A stretch of 64,000 bases of DNA. Source: Blastocatellia bacterium. Lineage in GTDB: Bacteria > Acidobacteriota > Blastocatellia > HR10. The notes beneath the pieces were generated by a model. The model searched no databases. It saw only the letters and a list, made by a program, of their open reading frames with translations, and was not told where the DNA came from. Both the position numbers and the translations under genes were made by a program. The stretch spans positions 62,001 through 126,000 of the forward strand of contig JANWYV010000020.1 in assembly GCA_025055075.1 (NCBI GenBank), read 5' to 3'. Numbering within the stretch: position 1 is the stretch's first letter; every line of letters starts with the position of its first letter. Positions 1,398 through 10,508 of this stretch are shown in pieces.

Positions 1398-2315
1398 TCA
1401 CTGAAGGCGCGCCCGCCGTCCGAGATAGGTGTAGAGCGCCCAATCGAGCGGTTGCGTCGTGAGCACCCGCTGATACGCGATCCCATGAGCGCGACAAAAG
1501 CGCTCCACCTCATCCAGATGTCGGCGAACGGCCTCGCGATAGTCAGCGCTGAGCGCATCGGGCGCGATGGGAATCTCCTCCCCCGTCTCCATGTCCACGA
1601 AGCGCGCAGCTTCCGTGAACGGGAACTCCACCTCCGAAGCATCCAGGAGGTGAAAGACGATGAGGTCCTGTCCTTGGGCTCGGAGAAGCCGCAAGGCGGA
1701 TCCCAACACATCCGGCGGCTCGTACAGGTCCGAGAGGAGGATGATGATGCCGCGCCGCCGCACGCGCTCGGCGATGCGCCGCAGTGCGTCCGCGATCGCT
1801 GACGTCCCCCCCGGCTTCAGCCGTTCCAACGTGCTCAATAGGAGATGGAGCTGCCCTGGTCGCAATCGCGCCGGAATGTACTCCACAATTCCGCGATCGA
1901 AAGTGATCAAGCCGACAGCGTCGTTCTGTCGCGTCGCCAGATAAGCGAGCGACGCGGCCAGATAACATGCATACTCACGCTTCTCGATGGCCGGCGGTTG
2001 CCGATAGGCCATCGAGGCACTCACATCCAGGAGGATATACACGCGCGTGTTCGTGTCGCCTCGAAACTTTTTGATGTAAGTCCGGTCGGTCCGCGCCAAG
2101 ACCTTCCAGTCGAGATACCGAAGATCGTCGCCGGGCATATATGGACGATACTCCGCGAAATCCACGCTGAAGCCGATGTAGGGTGAACGATGTAAGCCAG
2201 CGAGGAATCCCTCGACGACCGTGCGCGCCAGCAGTTCCAGCGACGAGATCTTCGCCAGCACTTCCGGACGCAAGAATCGAAATGTCGGACGCGATCCCTC
2301 AGCGGACCGATTCAT
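1398..2315 (-). CDS. DUF58 domain protein (MoxR partner)
   Basis: This 305-residue protein carries the DUF58 signature EYRPYMPGDDLRYLDW (residues 55-70) and a vWA-like metal site DVSAS at 97-101. DUF58 proteins are almost always encoded next to a MoxR AAA+ ATPase and are presumed to be its partner or substrate adaptor. The ATG at 2315 overlaps the MoxR stop as ATGA, which is why I chose it over an in-frame start 240 nt upstream inside MoxR. No signal peptide or membrane segment is evident, so it is probably cytoplasmic. Translational coupling to MoxR supports equimolar production. Confidence 0.9.
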   Translation of the reverse strand: MNRSAEGSRPTFRFLRPEVLAKISSLELLARTVVEGFLAGLHRSPYIGFSVDFAEYRPYMPGDDLRYLDWKVLARTDRTYIKKFRGDTNTRVYILLDVSASMAYRQPPAIEKREYACYLAASLAYLATRQNDAVGLITFDRGIVEYIPARLRPGQLHLLLSTLERLKPGGTSAIADALRRIAERVRRRGIIILLSDLYEPPDVLGSALRLLRAQGQDLIVFHLLDASEVEFPFTEAARFVDMETGEEIPIAPDALSADYREAVRRHLDEVERFCRAHGIAYQRVLTTQPLDWALYTYLGRRARLQ

Positions 2316-3340
2316 ACCGAGAGACCCGATGTCGGTTCCGGCACCGCCTCCAACAGGCGGCGGATGATCTCCTCCGAATTCACCCCTTCGGATTCGGCCT
2401 GGAAATTCACGAGGATGCGATGGCGCAGGACCGGATATGCGAGCGCGCGCACATCCTCGCACGAGACATGATAGCGACCGTTCAAGATCGCGCGGGCTTT
2501 CCCCCCGAGGATGAGGAACTGCGAGGCGCGCAGGCTCGCTCCCCAATTGACCCACTTGCGGACGAAGTCGAAGGCGCCGTTCCCCGGCCGGCTCGCCCCC
2601 ACCAAGCGCACGGCATAGCGGATGACCGAGTCGGCCGCCGGCACCTGGCGAATCAAGCGCTGGAATTCGATGATGTCCCGTCCTGTGATCTGCCGCTCGA
2701 AGACGACGTCTTGCGGCACCGTCGTCGCTCGCACGACTTCCACTTCTTCCTCTTCGCTCAAGTAGCCGATCTTGATGTTGAACATGAAGCGATCCAACTG
2801 CGCTTCCGGAAGCGGATATGTTCCCTCCAACTCGATCGGATTCTGCGTCGCGAGCACGAAGAAGGGCTTCGGCAGCTCGTAGGTCACGCCCTGCACCGTC
2901 ACCGCCCCCTCCTGCATCGCCTCCAGCAACGCCGCCTGCGTCTTCGGCGGCGTTCGATTGATCTCATCCGCCAAGACGATGTTGGCGAAGATGGGCCCGG
3001 GCACGAAATGGAAATGCCGCTTGCCCGTCGCTCGATCTTCTTCGATGACCTCCGTCCCCGTGATGTCGCTCGGCATGAGATCGGGAGTGAACTGAATGCG
3101 CTTGAACTTCAAATCGAGGGCATTGGCGATCGTCTTGATCAAGAGTGTCTTGGCTAATCCCGGCACTCCTGTGATGATCGAATGGCCGCCGACGAAGAGC
3201 GAGATGAGCACCTGTTCGATCACGTCGTCCTGTCCGATGATCACCTTCCGGATCTCCCGCAGGATCTGCTCCTTCGCTCGGACGAGCTTCTCCAGCAATT
3301 CCTCATCGCGAGTTTGATCCACGGCCTTATTGATGAGCAT
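2312..3340 (-). CDS. MoxR family AAA+ ATPase
   Basis: A 342-residue AAA+ ATPase of usual MoxR length. Walker A is GVPGLAKT (residues 58-65), Walker B is LADEIN (123-128), and the sensor-1 region reads ATQNPIELEGTYPLPEAQLDRF, typical of MoxR (residues split here only by description). MoxR proteins act as chaperone-like motors that remodel or insert cofactors into partner proteins, often together with vWA proteins such as the two encoded downstream. The start at 3340 was preferred because AAGGAGAG lies just upstream; an in-frame ATG 54 nt further up has no such site. A 69-nt gap separates it from the DUF4159 gene. Confidence 0.93.
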   Translation of the reverse strand: MLINKAVDQTRDEELLEKLVRAKEQILREIRKVIIGQDDVIEQVLISLFVGGHSIITGVPGLAKTLLIKTIANALDLKFKRIQFTPDLMPSDITGTEVIEEDRATGKRHFHFVPGPIFANIVLADEINRTPPKTQAALLEAMQEGAVTVQGVTYELPKPFFVLATQNPIELEGTYPLPEAQLDRFMFNIKIGYLSEEEEVEVVRATTVPQDVVFERQITGRDIIEFQRLIRQVPAADSVIRYAVRLVGASRPGNGAFDFVRKWVNWGASLRASQFLILGGKARAILNGRYHVSCEDVRALAYPVLRHRILVNFQAESEGVNSEEIIRRLLEAVPEPTSGLSV

Positions 3341-3409
3341 CGCGTTCTCTCCTTCCCTTCCGGAAATCCGGCGAGCCGATGAAGCTCGCCTCAAATGGCG
3401 AAATGCCGC

Positions 3410-4165
3410 TCAATGTGTCAAGGCATAGATGGCGTAATTCACGCCGAACTTAAACGCCTCGTTCGTATACTCGATAGGCGCGAAGGGATCGTCCGACCAC
3501 TCCCAGTATTCGCTCACATCGTTGTTGTAGTTGACGATCATCATCAAGCGCCCCTTCTTGTCCGAGAGTCCGAAGAACTTCGGCGCCCCCTCGCCATAAG
3601 GAGGGGGCACCTCCAGCGTCTTGATGCTGAAGAAGCAATTGAAGATGGGATGCGAGATGTCCAACTCCTGAAGCTCCAGATCGGGGAATGCACGGCGCAA
3701 ATGCGCGCGAAGATTCTCCAAGGCCCACTCCTCTCGGAAATCATCCACGATGAGGAAGCCTCCGCGCAGCAGATACTCGCGCAAGCCTTCGATCTCTCGA
3801 TCGCTCAAGCTCATGAATCCGACCTCGCAGAGGTAAGCGAAAGGATATTTGAAGAGTCGCGGATCGTCAAAACGGAGGATCACTTCATCGGGATTGGGGT
3901 CCACGAGGCTCACTTCGCTCAAGATCTTCATCAAGTGGCGCCCGCCGCGGGGATAATCGTGCGCCCAAGGCGGCACGCCGCCAAAGAACGCGCGCGAGGA
4001 GAATCGCCCGCCGTACTGAATGCGGGCGAAGGTGAACCGATTCGAATGCGCGTCCAGGTTCGCGCTCGGCTGCGCCTCTTTGCGCGGCGCTCCGCTCAGG
4101 AGCACCGCGAGCGCGCACCCGATGAGCCACACGCGCGGATGATGAGAACGGCTTCGATGTCTCAT
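3410..4165 (-). CDS. Exported DUF4159 domain protein
   Basis: The 251-residue product starts with a basic stretch and a hydrophobic segment ending in LLSGAP, a probable signal peptide or lipoprotein-like leader. The mature part matches DUF4159: FTFARIQYGGR, then a segment with FDDPRLFKYPFAYLCEVGFM, GGFLIVDDF and, near the end, NYNNDVSEYWEW. DUF4159 resembles a glutamine-amidotransferase-like fold and is commonly encoded in MoxR/DUF58/BatA clusters, but its function is not established. GGGAGGGAGAG precedes the chosen ATG. The stop of the upstream TPR gene lies 18 nt away, consistent with one operon. Confidence 0.85.
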   Translation of the reverse strand: MRHRSRSHHPRVWLIGCALAVLLSGAPRKEAQPSANLDAHSNRFTFARIQYGGRFSSRAFFGGVPPWAHDYPRGGRHLMKILSEVSLVDPNPDEVILRFDDPRLFKYPFAYLCEVGFMSLSDREIEGLREYLLRGGFLIVDDFREEWALENLRAHLRRAFPDLELQELDISHPIFNCFFSIKTLEVPPPYGEGAPKFFGLSDKKGRLMMIVNYNNDVSEYWEWSDDPFAPIEYTNEAFKFGVNYAIYALTH

Positions 4166-4183
4166 CCCTCTCCCTCCCACGCT

Positions 4184-6865
4184 TCAATGCTCGACGAGTT
4201 TCAAAAGGAGCGCTTGCGCTTTCTCGAATCCGGGCGCGATCTCCAGCGCCCGCAGGATTTCGCGTCGCGCCTCCGCGCGCGCGCCCTTCGCCAACAAAGC
4301 TCGCGCGAGCTGATAATGCGCTTCCGCGCGATCCGGCGGGTTCAGATGCAAGACAGCGGAGAACGCGCGCACGGCTCGCTCCGGTTGATTCTGCTCCAGA
4401 TAAAACTCTCCGGCCTGCGCCTGCACGTCTCGATCCAAGGGAGAAATCGCCAGGATGGCCTCCAATGCATTCTCAGCAATGTCCTTCTTCCCCAGCTTGA
4501 GCGCCAGTCGAAGGACGCGCCGCAACACCTCTTCATTCGCCTCCTCGCGAGTCGCCCACTGTTGGAGCACCGACAAAGCCTCGGCTTCGTCCCCACGCGC
4601 CTCGAAGATCGCCGCCAGCGCTTCGTAGGCATTCTCGGGTCCCGTGTAGAAGGGGAAGAGGCGAATCGCCTCGCGCAAATGGACGATGGCCGCTTCCAAA
4701 TCTCCACGCGCGCGGAGTATCCGCCCCAGGCGCAAATGCGCGGCGAAATTCTCCGGATGACGCGCGAGCGCCGCTCGAGCCTCTTCCTCCGAGACCTGCG
4801 GTCGCCTGAGCAGATGCAGATCGAGTCGCGAGAGATAAGGCCCAATCTCTCGCGCCACATGCTCACGAAAGAGCCGATCCAACTCCTCCACGCTCATGCC
4901 CAGCGCTTTCTGAAACACTCCTTCGGTGCGCTCCCCCTGGCGATAAAGCGCGAGCATATGGCGCAGTCGCTCAAACCCGAATCGCTCCACGATGAACTCG
5001 ACGACGAGCGAAGCCTGAAAATAGGCGAGGGAGAGCGCCTGCGGAGACGAAGGGCGAAGGAACGCCGCCTCCAAATGGCGCAAGGGGACGAACTGCCCTT
5101 CCGCGAAAGCGTGCGCGAATTCGAGCGTCCATTGATGCCCCCATCCGGGTCGCGCCCGCCGCTCTTCATAAACCGAGATGCCCTCGGAGAACCATCGCGG
5201 GATACGATAGGCCGTCGCCTGCAGCGTGATCACATGCACGAACTCGTGCCATGCCGTGCTCGCCCAGTTGAACGATCCCTGCGGGCGCGCCGAAGGGGAA
5301 TCCATCACGATCACCCGTCCGAAGCACGCGCCGAGCGCTCCGAGCCCCGGCAGCCCGACGGTCTTCACGGCGAAGTCCTCGTGATTGGGGAACAGCTCGA
5401 CGATGATCGGCCCATCGGGTCGAAACTGATACCGTTCGCTGAGCCGTCCATACGCGCGTTCGAGCAGATCTGCCACAAGCGGCGCGACGACGGGATGCTC
5501 CGAAGGCGCCATGCGAATGAGGAAATGCTCTGTGATCGTCTCCCGATAGGCGCGCATGCTGTCGAGCAGATCGAGCGTGTTCTTCACCCAGACATTGAAC
5601 GGATCTCCGGCGAAGGCGCGCTCCAAGACCTCGCGCCCCTCTGCATCGCGCCCGAGGCGCAAGAGGTTCAATCCTAATGTCGCCCATGCTCGCCACAGCC
5701 ACGGCGACAGCTCAACGGCGCGCCGCGCGAACTCGACGGCTTCAGGATATCGGCGGTTGAGCACAGCGAAATCGGCGAGCGTGGCGTACAGCTCGCCATA
5801 GCGCGGATTCGATCTCAGCACGCGCTGAATCTCCTCAGCCAGCTCGGCCGCGCGATCCTCCAGATAAAAGGCCACAGCGCGCAACGCGCGCGTCGAGAGC
5901 GAGTGCGGATTCACGCGAAGTGCCTCCCCGAGATGCCGCTCGGCCGTCTCGATATCGCCCACTTCCAGCAACAGCGCTGCCATGAGATCGTGAGCTTCGA
6001 CCAGCCGCGGATTCACTGCGAGCGCCCGTTGCACATGGGCGAATGCTTCGCTTCCACCGTTGATCCGCGTGCTCCGAGCAAGCCCCAGATGCGCCCGCGC
6101 GCAATGGGGATTGATCCGCAAGGCGTCGCGGAAGAAGCTCGCGGCCTCCGCGTAGTTGTACCTTTCGACGAAGAGATCGCCGGCTTGCAGATACGCTTCC
6201 CGAAATGCGGGATCGCGCTCGATGGCCTCGGCATACAACTCATTCGCCTCATGCGGACGGTCCAAATAGGCGAACGCGCGCGCCGCCCACGTCAGGTCTT
6301 CCGCCGATTGCAGCCCTTGCGCGAGAGCTTGTGCGGTGAGACGGCGCAGCCATTCGCGTGCTTCCTCAACGCGTCCCATCTGCCACAAGACCCACCCCTT
6401 TTGCACGCCCGCGCGGAGGCGGCCCGGCCATCCTTCGTGCGCGAGCGCGCGATCGAACGCTCGCTGCGCGTCCTCGTATCGGCCAGTCATCAGATGAATC
6501 TCCCCGAGCAGCATCTCCAAGCGCGCTATTTCGCCGGTGGTGAGAGCGCGGTCCGCACGCGCGAGGACCTCGCGGGCGGTCCGTTCGGCGTCCTCATATC
6601 GCCCCGTCTCCGCATAAGCCGTGATCAATCCTTCCGCCGCGCGGGCTGGTTGCTGATCGAGCGCCATTTGAAGTCGAGCGATCGCCTCCGCATATTCCCC
6701 GCGCCGCAGCTTCTCCCATCCCGCGTCGAGCGACGACTGCGCCGCCGCTCGTTCGCCTACTGCCAGCAAAACGAAGAGAACTAGGAGACGACCTCCCGTC
6801 CGCCACGCGCGGTTTCCGACGCTCGATCGCGTCCACAGCGACCACGTCATGCGCATTCGGGTCAC
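4184..6865 (-). CDS. TPR protein with gluzincin (peptidase MA-like) domain
   Basis: An 893-residue protein with an N-terminal hydrophobic export segment (about residues 26-42), a long array of tetratricopeptide repeats (about 45-430), a central protease domain and more TPRs (about 690-890). The protease domain carries HEFVH at 540-544 and a glutamate in WFSEG (E561), the HExxH...E arrangement of gluzincin zinc peptidases, so all three metal ligands and the catalytic Glu are present. GTG at 6865 overlaps the stop of the caspase-like gene (GTGA); ATG codons at 6856 and 6850 are alternatives. It is probably periplasmic. The pairing of two TPR blocks around a peptidase suggests recognition of protein partners, perhaps those handled by MoxR. 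Confidence 0.82.
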   Translation of the reverse strand: MTRMRMTWSLWTRSSVGNRAWRTGGRLLVLFVLLAVGERAAAQSSLDAGWEKLRRGEYAEAIARLQMALDQQPARAAEGLITAYAETGRYEDAERTAREVLARADRALTTGEIARLEMLLGEIHLMTGRYEDAQRAFDRALAHEGWPGRLRAGVQKGWVLWQMGRVEEAREWLRRLTAQALAQGLQSAEDLTWAARAFAYLDRPHEANELYAEAIERDPAFREAYLQAGDLFVERYNYAEAASFFRDALRINPHCARAHLGLARSTRINGGSEAFAHVQRALAVNPRLVEAHDLMAALLLEVGDIETAERHLGEALRVNPHSLSTRALRAVAFYLEDRAAELAEEIQRVLRSNPRYGELYATLADFAVLNRRYPEAVEFARRAVELSPWLWRAWATLGLNLLRLGRDAEGREVLERAFAGDPFNVWVKNTLDLLDSMRAYRETITEHFLIRMAPSEHPVVAPLVADLLERAYGRLSERYQFRPDGPIIVELFPNHEDFAVKTVGLPGLGALGACFGRVIVMDSPSARPQGSFNWASTAWHEFVHVITLQATAYRIPRWFSEGISVYEERRARPGWGHQWTLEFAHAFAEGQFVPLRHLEAAFLRPSSPQALSLAYFQASLVVEFIVERFGFERLRHMLALYRQGERTEGVFQKALGMSVEELDRLFREHVAREIGPYLSRLDLHLLRRPQVSEEEARAALARHPENFAAHLRLGRILRARGDLEAAIVHLREAIRLFPFYTGPENAYEALAAIFEARGDEAEALSVLQQWATREEANEEVLRRVLRLALKLGKKDIAENALEAILAISPLDRDVQAQAGEFYLEQNQPERAVRAFSAVLHLNPPDRAEAHYQLARALLAKGARAEARREILRALEIAPGFEKAQALLLKLVEH

Positions 6866-7872
6866 GGCTTCCCCCTCCGCGCGTTGATGCGTTCAGTGAG
6901 CCTGGCCAATTCCAAGAGCCATCGTTCCAACTCCCGCTCGTACTCGTCCGGCGACATCTCGGTTTTCCGCGCTTTCACCGCCTCGATCTTCTCAAGGAGC
7001 GCCTGCCGTTGGCGAAGCAGCGCGCGCAATTCCTCATCTTCCTCGCCGATCTCGACGGGCGCTTCCAGATACACGGTTCGAGCCAACCGTCCATCCCCCT
7101 CACCGATTTCCCCGTGTCCGATGCCATCGCCATTATCGTCGAGGAGCGGATGTTCGGTCGCCAGGACTCCTTGCCGCGCATAATGCTCCGCCGTCAACCT
7201 GGTGGCGAAGGCGAATGCTTCCGCGAGCGACGTGCGTCCGTCCTTGTCGGTGTCTGCCCGCGCATCGGCGAAAGCTTCGAGGAGATACTGCGCGAAGATC
7301 GTCGCTTGCTGCTCGCGCCCGCTGCGCGTGGCCGTGATGATGACCGTTCCCGGCCGACTCAGGATCGGGAGGAACGCGCCGCTGGAGCTAGCCGTATTCA
7401 CGAAGACGATGTGACGAGCCCTCACTTCCGACAAGAGCGCGCGGAAATCCTCCGCCGAGAGATCTGGCCCGACCAGATTGAAATATCCGCGCTCGCCATC
7501 AAAGCTCCCATGCCCGATCAGGAAGATGACGACGAGGCTCTCGGGTGTGCTCTCGCTGCGAACGCGCTCCAGCGCGCGGCGAACGGCATCGGCCGTCGCG
7601 CGCGCCGCGTTCGGCGAACACCCGCGGCCGTCAGGGGTGAGCACGAAGATATGCTCAGGGCGAAACCGCCAGCGTTCGGTGAGGAGTCCACAGAGGCGCT
7701 CCGTCCATTCGGCAAACCGACGCTCGAATGCTGGGTCGCCGCCAAGGCCACGCACGAGCACAGCGAACCGTTCATCGGGTGCGCGTCGCTCCTCCTGTGC
7801 GTGGGCCCCGCCGAGGAGAAGCAATCCCAACGCCACGCTGATTCCCACCTTTTCGAAGAAGGCTCGCATCAT
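6862..7872 (-). CDS. Caspase/legumain-like protein with Cys-to-Ser change
   Basis: The 336-residue protein begins with a signal peptide (about residues 1-26, ending GGAHAQ). The clan CD peptidase pattern is visible: hydrophobic strand followed by the histidine motif IGHGSF (H121) and a second strand followed by NTASSSGAF (159-167). Aligned on the conserved SG, the catalytic cysteine position (as in EACESG of legumains) is Ser162. A calcium-type loop DTDKDGRTS (208-216) and DDNGDG follow, then a charged C-terminal helix. The start ATG at 7872 overlaps the upstream stop (ATGA) and is preceded by GGGAGGG. It is either a non-catalytic binding protein or a serine variant; the fold assignment is good, activity is doubtful. 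Confidence 0.8.
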   Translation of the reverse strand: MMRAFFEKVGISVALGLLLLGGAHAQEERRAPDERFAVLVRGLGGDPAFERRFAEWTERLCGLLTERWRFRPEHIFVLTPDGRGCSPNAARATADAVRRALERVRSESTPESLVVIFLIGHGSFDGERGYFNLVGPDLSAEDFRALLSEVRARHIVFVNTASSSGAFLPILSRPGTVIITATRSGREQQATIFAQYLLEAFADARADTDKDGRTSLAEAFAFATRLTAEHYARQGVLATEHPLLDDNGDGIGHGEIGEGDGRLARTVYLEAPVEIGEEDEELRALLRQRQALLEKIEAVKARKTEMSPDEYERELERWLLELARLTERINARRGKP

Positions 7873-10136
7873 ATCCCTCCCCATCGCCGCCGCAGCGCCC
7901 ACTCCAGCGAGAGGAAGCTCACAAGGAGCAGGAAGAGGATCGGCATGTCCCACAATTCCTTAGTCACGCGGATCGAATGCGCGCCGGCCGAATACTCCAG
8001 CTCGGGCACTAGGGCTTTGGCGTCGGTGATCGGATGGTATTCCCCTCCGGTCTCGCGCGCGAGCCATTGCAGCAGTCCGACGTTTTGCTCGGCTCCTCGG
8101 TACTCTCGATCCGGCTCGCGCACGATCAACTGAATCTCCGCCTCTCCCAACTCGCGATCGGCGCGCCGCGCGCGCGCTCGAAGACGATAGACGCCGGGCT
8201 CCGGCGTGCGAAGCATACCGACATATTCGCCTTCGTTCTCCAAAGACGGCTCCACGCGCATGCGCTCGGTCGCGCCGCGTGGCGTAGTCACCTCGACATC
8301 AACAGTGGCGTTGAGAACGGGTCGGAACAGCTCGTCCCGCACCTCCACGCGAAGAGGAGCTTCGTCCCCTACTTCGTAAGCATCCGCATCAGTCCGCACA
8401 GTGACCGGATCTTCGGCGAAGCTGACCATATATCGCAGCATCTGCTTCCAGAACGTCTCGTGCGAGAGATCGCTCGAGTCCATCTCCATCTGCCATCGCC
8501 ACGAATCCGAAGGAGTGAAGGCCAGCCCGACCCCTCGACCGTATCGGTGTACGGCGAGTAGGACGGGTCGCCTCCCGGCGCGCGAAGCGTGTGTGCCCTC
8601 GAGCAAGACGAGGGCACCGGGCTTGACGCGCGCGAAGATCTCGGGCACGGTCACGCGCGGCATCGCTCGCCACGCGCGCTCGTTCGCCGCGCGATCCTCC
8701 TTCAAGCGAGTGATCGGATGGTCTCGTCCGGCTTCCGTCAGTGTCGGCGCATAGACGGCGACTTCGTCCTCGCGCGAGCTCTCCAATTGTTCTCGCCGAA
8801 CCTCCACGGGAAGGACATCGGCGAGCGGCGTCAGCGCATACCCTCCCGCCGAGAACGAACGCCGACCGCCGAGCATAAGCAATCCTCCGCCGCGTCGCGC
8901 GACGAACGCCTCCATCCACTCCAACTGTTCCCGGGTGAAGAACCCGGCCTCCACGCTCCCAAGGATCAGCCCTTTGAACCGAAAGAGTTCCTCCGGACGC
9001 TCCGGGAATCCCTTGACCAACTCTTCCCCGCTCTCGACGCCCTGCCGATAGAATTTCCCTCGGGCCGTGCGCACGACCGAGACCAGGTTGAGCTGCTCGT
9101 CATCAGCGACGGCCGCGCGCAGCTTCCCGTATTCCCATCGAGGTTCCCCCTCGATGTAGAGCACGCGCACGACTTCGTCGCGCACGTCCACGATGGCCTC
9201 CAACCGATTGTTCTCCAGGATCAATTCCCGCGATTGGGGATCAACGACGAAGGCGTACCGATGCACACCGGCCTCCGAGGGCGTGAACTCCAACGCGACG
9301 GCCGAGGTCCCCGCCTCGCCGTCGCACTCGATCGGCTTCACCTGAAGCGTGCGCTCGCCTTCCAGAACGCGCACTGTCACGCGACGTTCCAATCCACGTC
9401 CGCAGCGGAGGAGGAGATCAGCTTTCACCGACGACCCTTTGAGGACGCGCCGAGGGACGCTCACGCGCACCAACTCGACATCGCGCTCGATCCGCTCTTG
9501 TCCCACGCCGACGGTGTAGATGGGAACGCGCCGCGTCGTGAACATCGGCAGAAGAGCCGATAGATCTCGCTTCGCATTATGCGCGCCATCGCTGATGAGG
9601 ATGACAGCAGCCAGCGGCTCTCCCTGAAGACTCGCGAGCACACGTTCGAGTCCCATCGCGAGATCCGTTCGCGGGACGGTCGGCTGAGTCGTCAGCTCTT
9701 CACCGCTCAGCGTGAAGACGCGCACTGCAAATCTCGCCATGAGCCCGCGCCAGAATCCTCCCTCAGGATCGAGGAAGGCCCGAACGGCCTCCGCGCGAGA
9801 TCGGCCGTCCATATCCGGGATTCGCATGCTGAGGGAATCGTCCACCAGGATCGCGATCGTCGCCGTGTGGGGAATGATCGAAGGGACGCTCACTACCGGC
9901 TGCAGCAGGCAGAAGATCAGCAGCGCCAGGGCGCCGAGTCGAAGACCGATCGTGACGATCTTCATCCGTCGCGGAAGCGGCTGACGCGCGCGCCGAGTGA
10001 TCACATACGCGCCGCCCACTGTCGCCGCTACGAGCGCTACCCATGCGCCCGTCGAGGAGAACGCTGCGAATGAAAACTCGCCGCGCTCGAAAACGACCGG
10101 CGGATATTTGAAGAGCCATTCAAACACGCGATCCAT
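7869..10136 (-). CDS. Membrane vWA protein with GATase-like domain
   Basis: A 755-residue protein with two membrane segments (about 27-46 and 57-82), a vWA domain with metal site DDSLS (D99, S101, S103), an Ig-like stretch, then a class I glutamine-amidotransferase-like domain beginning VLYIEGEPRWEYGKL and containing the turn LILGSVEAGFF where an active enzyme would carry a cysteine. No Cys is present there, so amidotransferase activity is unlikely. A C-terminal membrane helix lies at MPILFLLLVSFLSLEWAL. Homologues of this architecture occur in MoxR/DUF58/BatA clusters. ATG at 10136 was chosen because the protein then begins directly with the conserved amphipathic and membrane region. It is the first gene of the minus-strand operon. 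Confidence 0.85.
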   Translation of the reverse strand: MDRVFEWLFKYPPVVFERGEFSFAAFSSTGAWVALVAATVGGAYVITRRARQPLPRRMKIVTIGLRLGALALLIFCLLQPVVSVPSIIPHTATIAILVDDSLSMRIPDMDGRSRAEAVRAFLDPEGGFWRGLMARFAVRVFTLSGEELTTQPTVPRTDLAMGLERVLASLQGEPLAAVILISDGAHNAKRDLSALLPMFTTRRVPIYTVGVGQERIERDVELVRVSVPRRVLKGSSVKADLLLRCGRGLERRVTVRVLEGERTLQVKPIECDGEAGTSAVALEFTPSEAGVHRYAFVVDPQSRELILENNRLEAIVDVRDEVVRVLYIEGEPRWEYGKLRAAVADDEQLNLVSVVRTARGKFYRQGVESGEELVKGFPERPEELFRFKGLILGSVEAGFFTREQLEWMEAFVARRGGGLLMLGGRRSFSAGGYALTPLADVLPVEVRREQLESSREDEVAVYAPTLTEAGRDHPITRLKEDRAANERAWRAMPRVTVPEIFARVKPGALVLLEGTHASRAGRRPVLLAVHRYGRGVGLAFTPSDSWRWQMEMDSSDLSHETFWKQMLRYMVSFAEDPVTVRTDADAYEVGDEAPLRVEVRDELFRPVLNATVDVEVTTPRGATERMRVEPSLENEGEYVGMLRTPEPGVYRLRARARRADRELGEAEIQLIVREPDREYRGAEQNVGLLQWLARETGGEYHPITDAKALVPELEYSAGAHSIRVTKELWDMPILFLLLVSFLSLEWALRRRWGGI

Positions 10137-10508
10137 ATGCGCCCCGATTCCACACACAAGGAACGTTCCGGCGCGCTCATCGGTTGCGCCTTTCCCGCGC
10201 TCTCGCACGAAGCGCGTCTGGGCTCCTGCGGCAGGAGTGGGGACTTCAGCGCTCAGTGCTGTTCACTGGAAGCTCTCGGCGAACGCCCACCTCTTCCTGC
10301 GCATCGTGGCGACAGCGAACCGTTTCAAACAACATCTGCCGATGTCCCAGCGATCCTCAGATCGCGCATGGACATTCGATCCCGGCGCTCTCGCATGCCT
10401 CGGCGATTATATCACAGCTCGTCCGCATCGCGATATGAAGCGAGGAGCGCTCGACAATGCTCCCCTGGACGAATTCGTCCACTCTCTGCTACCTTGCTCC
10501 TCCGGACG
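10137..10508 (+). other. Divergent intergenic region (no gene seen)
   Basis: This 372-nt stretch separates the minus-strand vWA operon from the plus-strand prephenate dehydrogenase gene, so it should hold both promoters. I see no convincing coding frame. A TATAAT on the minus strand lies at 10406-10411 without a clear -35 partner. A perfect 16-nt palindrome, TGGACGAATTCGTCCA, occupies 10466-10481, 27 nt before the dehydrogenase ATG, and may be an operator. Confidence 0.5.

Follow-up and report, generated by a model that had tools for sequence, protein, structure and literature searches.

The window, a stretch of 64,000 nucleotides from a Blastocatellia bacterium, carries a run of genes on its minus strand, to which all coordinates below refer, in the order VWA/GATase1-like, C13-like, TPR with Peptidase_MA, DUF4159, MoxR and DUF58. 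The C13-like gene (6862..7872) encodes, as judged from its frame, its Pfam match and its predicted fold, a C13 (legumain)-like protein of 336 amino acids; it lacks the catalytic Cys. The gene upstream (7869..10208) encodes a membrane protein with VWA and GATase1-like regions and a DDSLS MIDAS-like motif recognized by eye. Its VWA and GATase1_like matches both fall below the Pfam cut-offs; an orthologous gene in L038 is above the cut-off for GATase1_like. Downstream lies the gene for a TPR protein with a Peptidase_MA_2 domain (4184..6865), in which the zincin motif HEFVH...E is retained, as read by eye, so that a functional metallopeptidase may be part of the operon. The DUF4159 gene (3410..4180, assigned by Pfam) is followed by those for a MoxR-type AAA+ ATPase (2312..3394; AAA_3, E 2e-63) and a DUF58 protein (1398..2555; DUF58, E 3e-49), the latter with a true start probably near 2315. 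Thus, MoxR, DUF58 and VWA-type genes stand together in one cluster of the window.

The original prediction described a caspase-like protein with an intact His motif, GHGSF, and a Cys block reading NTASSSGAF, and both motifs were found in a single open frame (6862-7953): GHGSF, containing His121, at 7501..7515 and the NTASSSG block at 7378..7398. Translation likely begins at the ATG at 7872. This codon shares bases with the stop of the gene before it (ATGA) and is preceded by GGAGGG; numbering from it gives His121 and Ser162, as in the prediction. The stop of the gene in turn overlaps the GTG start of the downstream gene. The first 25 or so residues (MMRAFFEKVGISVALGLLLLGGAHAQ; 7798..7872) read by eye as a putative signal peptide, and residues 1-31 are unstructured in the predicted model. 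This hydrophobic leader suggests that the protein is exported. The NTASSSG block contains, according to the alignments described below, the nucleophile slot, Ser162 (codon 7387-7389), and a near-invariant Ser164 (codon 7381-7383). The only cysteines of the protein are C61 and C85, neither of which is conserved.

Three further features were located. An EF-hand-type loop, D207-x-D-x-D/N-G-x-x-S-x-x-E218 (7219..7254), was recognized by its pattern as a predicted Ca2+ site, and its invariant ends suggest Ca2+ binding. Across the family the loop follows D-x-[DN]-x-[DNS]-G-x-[VI]-S-x-x-E, its first and last residues being the same in all 174 relatives, and it is shared with Cys-bearing bacterial clan CD proteins (L109, L110, L111, L113). 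The family alignment marks a DDNGDG motif at residues 245-250 (7123..7140), of which D246 is invariant. Finally, a C-terminal helical pair (residues 280-333; 6874..7035) lies outside the legumain-like core in the model and is present family-wide.

Homology of the protein to clan CD is beyond chance, as established by the C13 profile and the legumain fold. The protein matches Pfam Peptidase_C13 (PF01650) with E 6e-7 and 29.6 bits, against a curated cut-off of 22.8, and the same profile matches 31 of 65 members of the wider family. A structure model built from 24 orthologues (pLDDT 84, pTM 0.74) had legumain as its best fold match (4nol_A; Z 22.5, rmsd 2.4 over 203 residues), followed by metacaspase-4 (Z 21.2) and the GPI transamidase PIG-K (Z 19.5). 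The predicted fold was unchanged in L039, a member with Glu in the nucleophile slot (metacaspase-4, Z 21.5; legumain, Z 21.1). When the solved structures were searched by sequence with the single protein, only chance matches were returned, while family profiles found metacaspases. The C14 p20 profile PF00656 matched neither the protein (E <= 1) nor anything in its own genome, and it was weakly matched by 3 of 65 relatives. The family belongs with C13 (legumain) and not with the C14 caspases. Since it lacks the Cys that characterizes C13, it should not be classed among the active C13 peptidases. A role as an anti-phage defence caspase was also considered and rejected, as the protein had no PADLOC match; the generic caspase model of PADLOC was weakly matched by 21 of 65 relatives. 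Nor did the protein match NF047832, the profile of EACC1-associated caspases, to which 18 of 65 relatives showed weak matches (best, 1.3e-6).

A protein with this fold might serve to decoy or regulate a caspase or legumain paralogue that is active, a role known for pseudo-caspases (discussed in PMC3501461). However, a Pfam search of its own genome found no other C13 protein and no C14 protein. The adjacent peptidase, which it might still regulate, is of the metallopeptidase type. We regard such a role as highly improbable.

Two alignments, both independent of the alignment by eye on "SG" behind the original prediction, were used to set the register of the active site. In the profile alignment of the wider family, Ser162 falls on the position of Cys139 of metacaspase-4 (C139A entry) and Ser164 on the Ser of CHSG. 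The HMM alignment to L109, a Cys-bearing homologue (EPCFSGG) encoded in a different genome within the same class, gave the same register. Because the two agree, Ser162 occupies the nucleophile slot, as had been proposed, and Ser164 is the residue at +2. Active clan CD enzymes often carry Ser or another small residue two positions after the Cys (CHSG, CESG). In one Blastocatellia family (L010, L011, L012, L013), a Cys is found two residues before the slot (DCSSSSG or NCASSSG), outside the nucleophile position.

If the Ser in place of Cys were a private mutation, a sequencing error or a sign of gene decay, then orthologues with Cys at this site or broken frames would be expected. Twenty-four Blastocatellia orthologues were found, in 24 of the 58 genomes searched, and H121, S162, S164 and G165 are invariant in all 24; L025, a low-scoring match due to chance, was left out of the set. 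With Ser in every orthologue, stop-free frames and strong conservation, this explanation is refuted and its probability is next to nil. The wider set comprised 174 aligned sequences from collections that overlap in rows, of which 136 rows were left at <90% identity. It covers Acidobacteriota as well as records labelled Gemmatimonadetes/Gemmatimonadota, Latescibacterota, KSB1, Rhodothermales, Gammaproteobacteria and others. Of 297 Acidobacteriota genomes, 86 have a member of the family. Slot 162 holds S in 132 of the 174 sequences, A in 13, E in 13, G in 7, P in 4, T in 3 and N in 2. The Cys-bearing orthologues that the original prediction had named as a sign of a private mutation did not appear: Cys occupies the slot in 0/174 relatives, where the collection search contributed the best 80 of 521 relatives and rarer Cys-bearing members could lie outside these. 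A relocated Cys nucleophile was likewise rejected on conservation, as the 174-row alignment contains no column of conserved Cys, the maximum being 15/174 in the leader region.

His121 was found in 174/174 relatives, including the 42 that have A, E, G, P, T or N instead of Ser162, and Ser164 in 171/174, the remaining three having Ala. Hence Ser164, two residues on, and not Ser162, is the near-universal and more constrained serine of the family. Five acidic residues, D137, D207, E218, E240 and D246, are also invariant. Neither the stronger constraint on Ser164 nor the operon figured in the original prediction.

One explanation for this pattern is that the nucleophile shifted two residues to Ser164 and forms a new, family-wide dyad with His121. 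The near-universal presence of both residues is what such a dyad would require, and the codons of Ser164 include both AGY and TCN, so that the serine is maintained irrespective of codon type. However, given the +2 Ser of active clan CD enzymes, an inherited structural residue is the simpler account; moreover, Ser164 begins the helix after the strand in the predicted model, and the three members with Ala lack the proposed nucleophile. We consider this shift very unlikely.

The tree, which was computed without the motif columns, revealed two regimes at the slot. Blastocatellia contribute 26 rows, which group in one supported clade and all have Ser at the slot. A separate clade of 46 rows (SH-aLRT 99%) has mostly Phe at +3, and its slot varies (S/A/E/G/P). 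The tree requires no fewer than 18 switches between Ser and non-Ser at slot 162. Ranked by rate among 303 positions, from the slowest, the slot stands at 1 in Blastocatellia, at 33 in the rows outside the 46-row clade and at 155, a median rate, within that clade; the respective ranks are 6, 3 and 6 for H121 and 1, 2 and 1 for S164. Because the slot is free in the 46-row clade while His121 is fixed, the role of His121 needs no nucleophile at 162, at least in this clade. Ser162, on the other hand, is strongly held in the clade of the window, whether for catalysis or for binding.

This strong hold speaks for a live nucleophile. If Ser162 acted with His121 as a Ser-His hydrolase in Blastocatellia and the other "SG" clades, and the "SF" clade became inactive later, then the invariance of Ser162 in Blastocatellia, its slow rate in SG rows (rank 33/303) and the presence of His121 in every member would all be expected. 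The codons of Ser162 also fit, being AGY in 71/74, a single base from the TGY of Cys. However, His121 is just as fixed where the slot holds A, E, G or P, and even among the SG rows about ten have P, T, N or A at this position. Cys-to-Ser clan CD proteins, both natural and engineered, are moreover regarded as inactive (PMC6426788). A live Ser162 is thus unlikely in our view. It is also rather improbable that the Ser162 clades are periplasmic serine hydrolases or transpeptidases, with a clan CD fold and a Ser-His dyad, acting on an envelope substrate; Ser162, if truly catalytic, would make a serine peptidase on a caspase fold. A varying slot beside fixed His121 and Ser164 in the sister clade speaks for a pseudo-peptidase rather than a serine protease. 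Between the pseudoenzyme and the serine variant offered by the original prediction, the former is therefore favoured, the latter being the less likely possibility.

The gene neighbourhood points to a partner. The VWA/GATase gene is immediately upstream of the C13-like gene in 64 of the 72 loci with enough upstream sequence, and at 32 loci the two genes overlap by exactly 4 nt between start and stop, a count biased upward because the start nearest the stop was chosen. Among 58 related genomes, 24 have both the C13-like gene and a strong match to the VWA/GATase protein and 34 have neither, where three further genomes have weak VWA matches and kinship means that these are not 58 independent events. 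In seven loci of a Ser-Phe subgroup (L052, L063, L075, L077, L081, L082, L095), the TPR-MA gene takes the upstream place of the VWA/GATase gene. The clusters of the family also contain MoxR, DUF58, DUF4159 and TPR-MA genes or, for the 46-row clade, BatA and DUF4175.

Taken together, we think it probable that the protein is a secreted pseudo-peptidase of the C13 fold, which does not cleave and serves as a binding or scaffold part of a MoxR/VWA envelope complex. The clan CD cysteine would have disappeared in an ancestor of the whole family, with the domain retained for binding rather than cutting. The membrane-anchored VWA/GATase1-like protein of the same operon is probably its working partner. 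The cytoplasmic MoxR/DUF58 chaperone pair would control this cell-envelope complex, and the C13-like protein itself is most likely periplasmic, to judge from its leader. In such a complex, His121, Ser164, D137, D207, E218, E240 and D246, including the EF-hand-type loop, may shape an empty cleft and a Ca2+-stabilized surface, which would receive a peptide or a partner protein. Binding by a clan CD protein without its nucleophile has a precedent, since the active-site mutant C189S of human legumain still formed a complex with cystatin E (PMC5378956). In Borrelia, VWA domains of the BatA type are on the periplasmic side (PMC5700661). The function of the operon is carried over by analogy from distant relatives: the Rhizobium MoxR protein RL3499 is required to maintain membrane integrity and cell shape (PMC3893208), while Leptospira biflexa showed no phenotype when its bat genes were deleted (PMC3557215), which counts against over-reading the role of the operon. 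The rates at Ser162, first of 303 in its own clade and 33rd outside the 46-row clade, also count against a pseudo-peptidase, being excessive for an idle slot.

The family shares its core fold, Pfam C13 match, His-Gly motif and slot order with the C13 peptidases (legumain, an asparaginyl endopeptidase, and PIG-K). It differs from them in that no member found has the catalytic Cys, in its C-terminal helical pair beyond the aligned core, in its EF-hand-type loop and in its bacterial MoxR operon. Like the pseudo-orthocaspases and other prokaryotic caspase homologues (PMC6426788, PMC3501461), it is a bacterial clan CD group with Ser for Cys and presumed inactivity. Pseudo-orthocaspases, however, mostly lose the His too (YS, YN, FS) and come chiefly from Cyanobacteria or Alphaproteobacteria, whereas the window family keeps its His throughout and is mostly found in Acidobacteriota. 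The single Gemmatimonadetes homologue without a dyad in PMC3501461 could be a member of this family. TbMC1 and TbMC4 of Trypanosoma brucei carry HS and YS substitutions (PMC6426788), so that one of them has His-Ser as here, but they are single eukaryotic paralogues among active metacaspases, while the window family is entirely without Cys.

Two kinds of gene cluster are comparable. Bat (aerotolerance) operons and Rhizobium RL3499-RL3502, the latter tied to envelope integrity, also combine MoxR, DUF58, VWA/BatA-type and TPR genes in one cluster; a C13-like subunit is unreported for them in the papers examined. MoxR-vWA ternary and EACC1-caspase conflict systems (PMC7159879) bring together MoxR, VWA and caspase-like proteins as well, but the caspases there are effector peptidases of intracellular systems, whereas the window protein has no NF047832 match and is probably secreted. 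Literature searches for a bacterial Ser-legumain, for a link between C13 and MoxR and for papers on DUF4159 returned none.

Cys-to-Ser pseudo-caspases are already known in bacteria, and pseudo-caspases in general mostly as scattered variants of active families. The family described here keeps its His, is nearer to C13, has no Cys-bearing member among those found and belongs to one operon. This multi-phylum family appears to have lost the Cys at its root while retaining His121, Ser164 and the fold, and it represents a natural experiment in the use of a clan CD active site without a nucleophile. Its tie to a partner, by gene order and co-occurrence, offers a handle on the function of Bat- and RL3499-like operons. 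In some genomes a Ser-Gly member and a Ser-Phe member occur together, each on its own contig (L054/L056, L038/L087, L060/L073).
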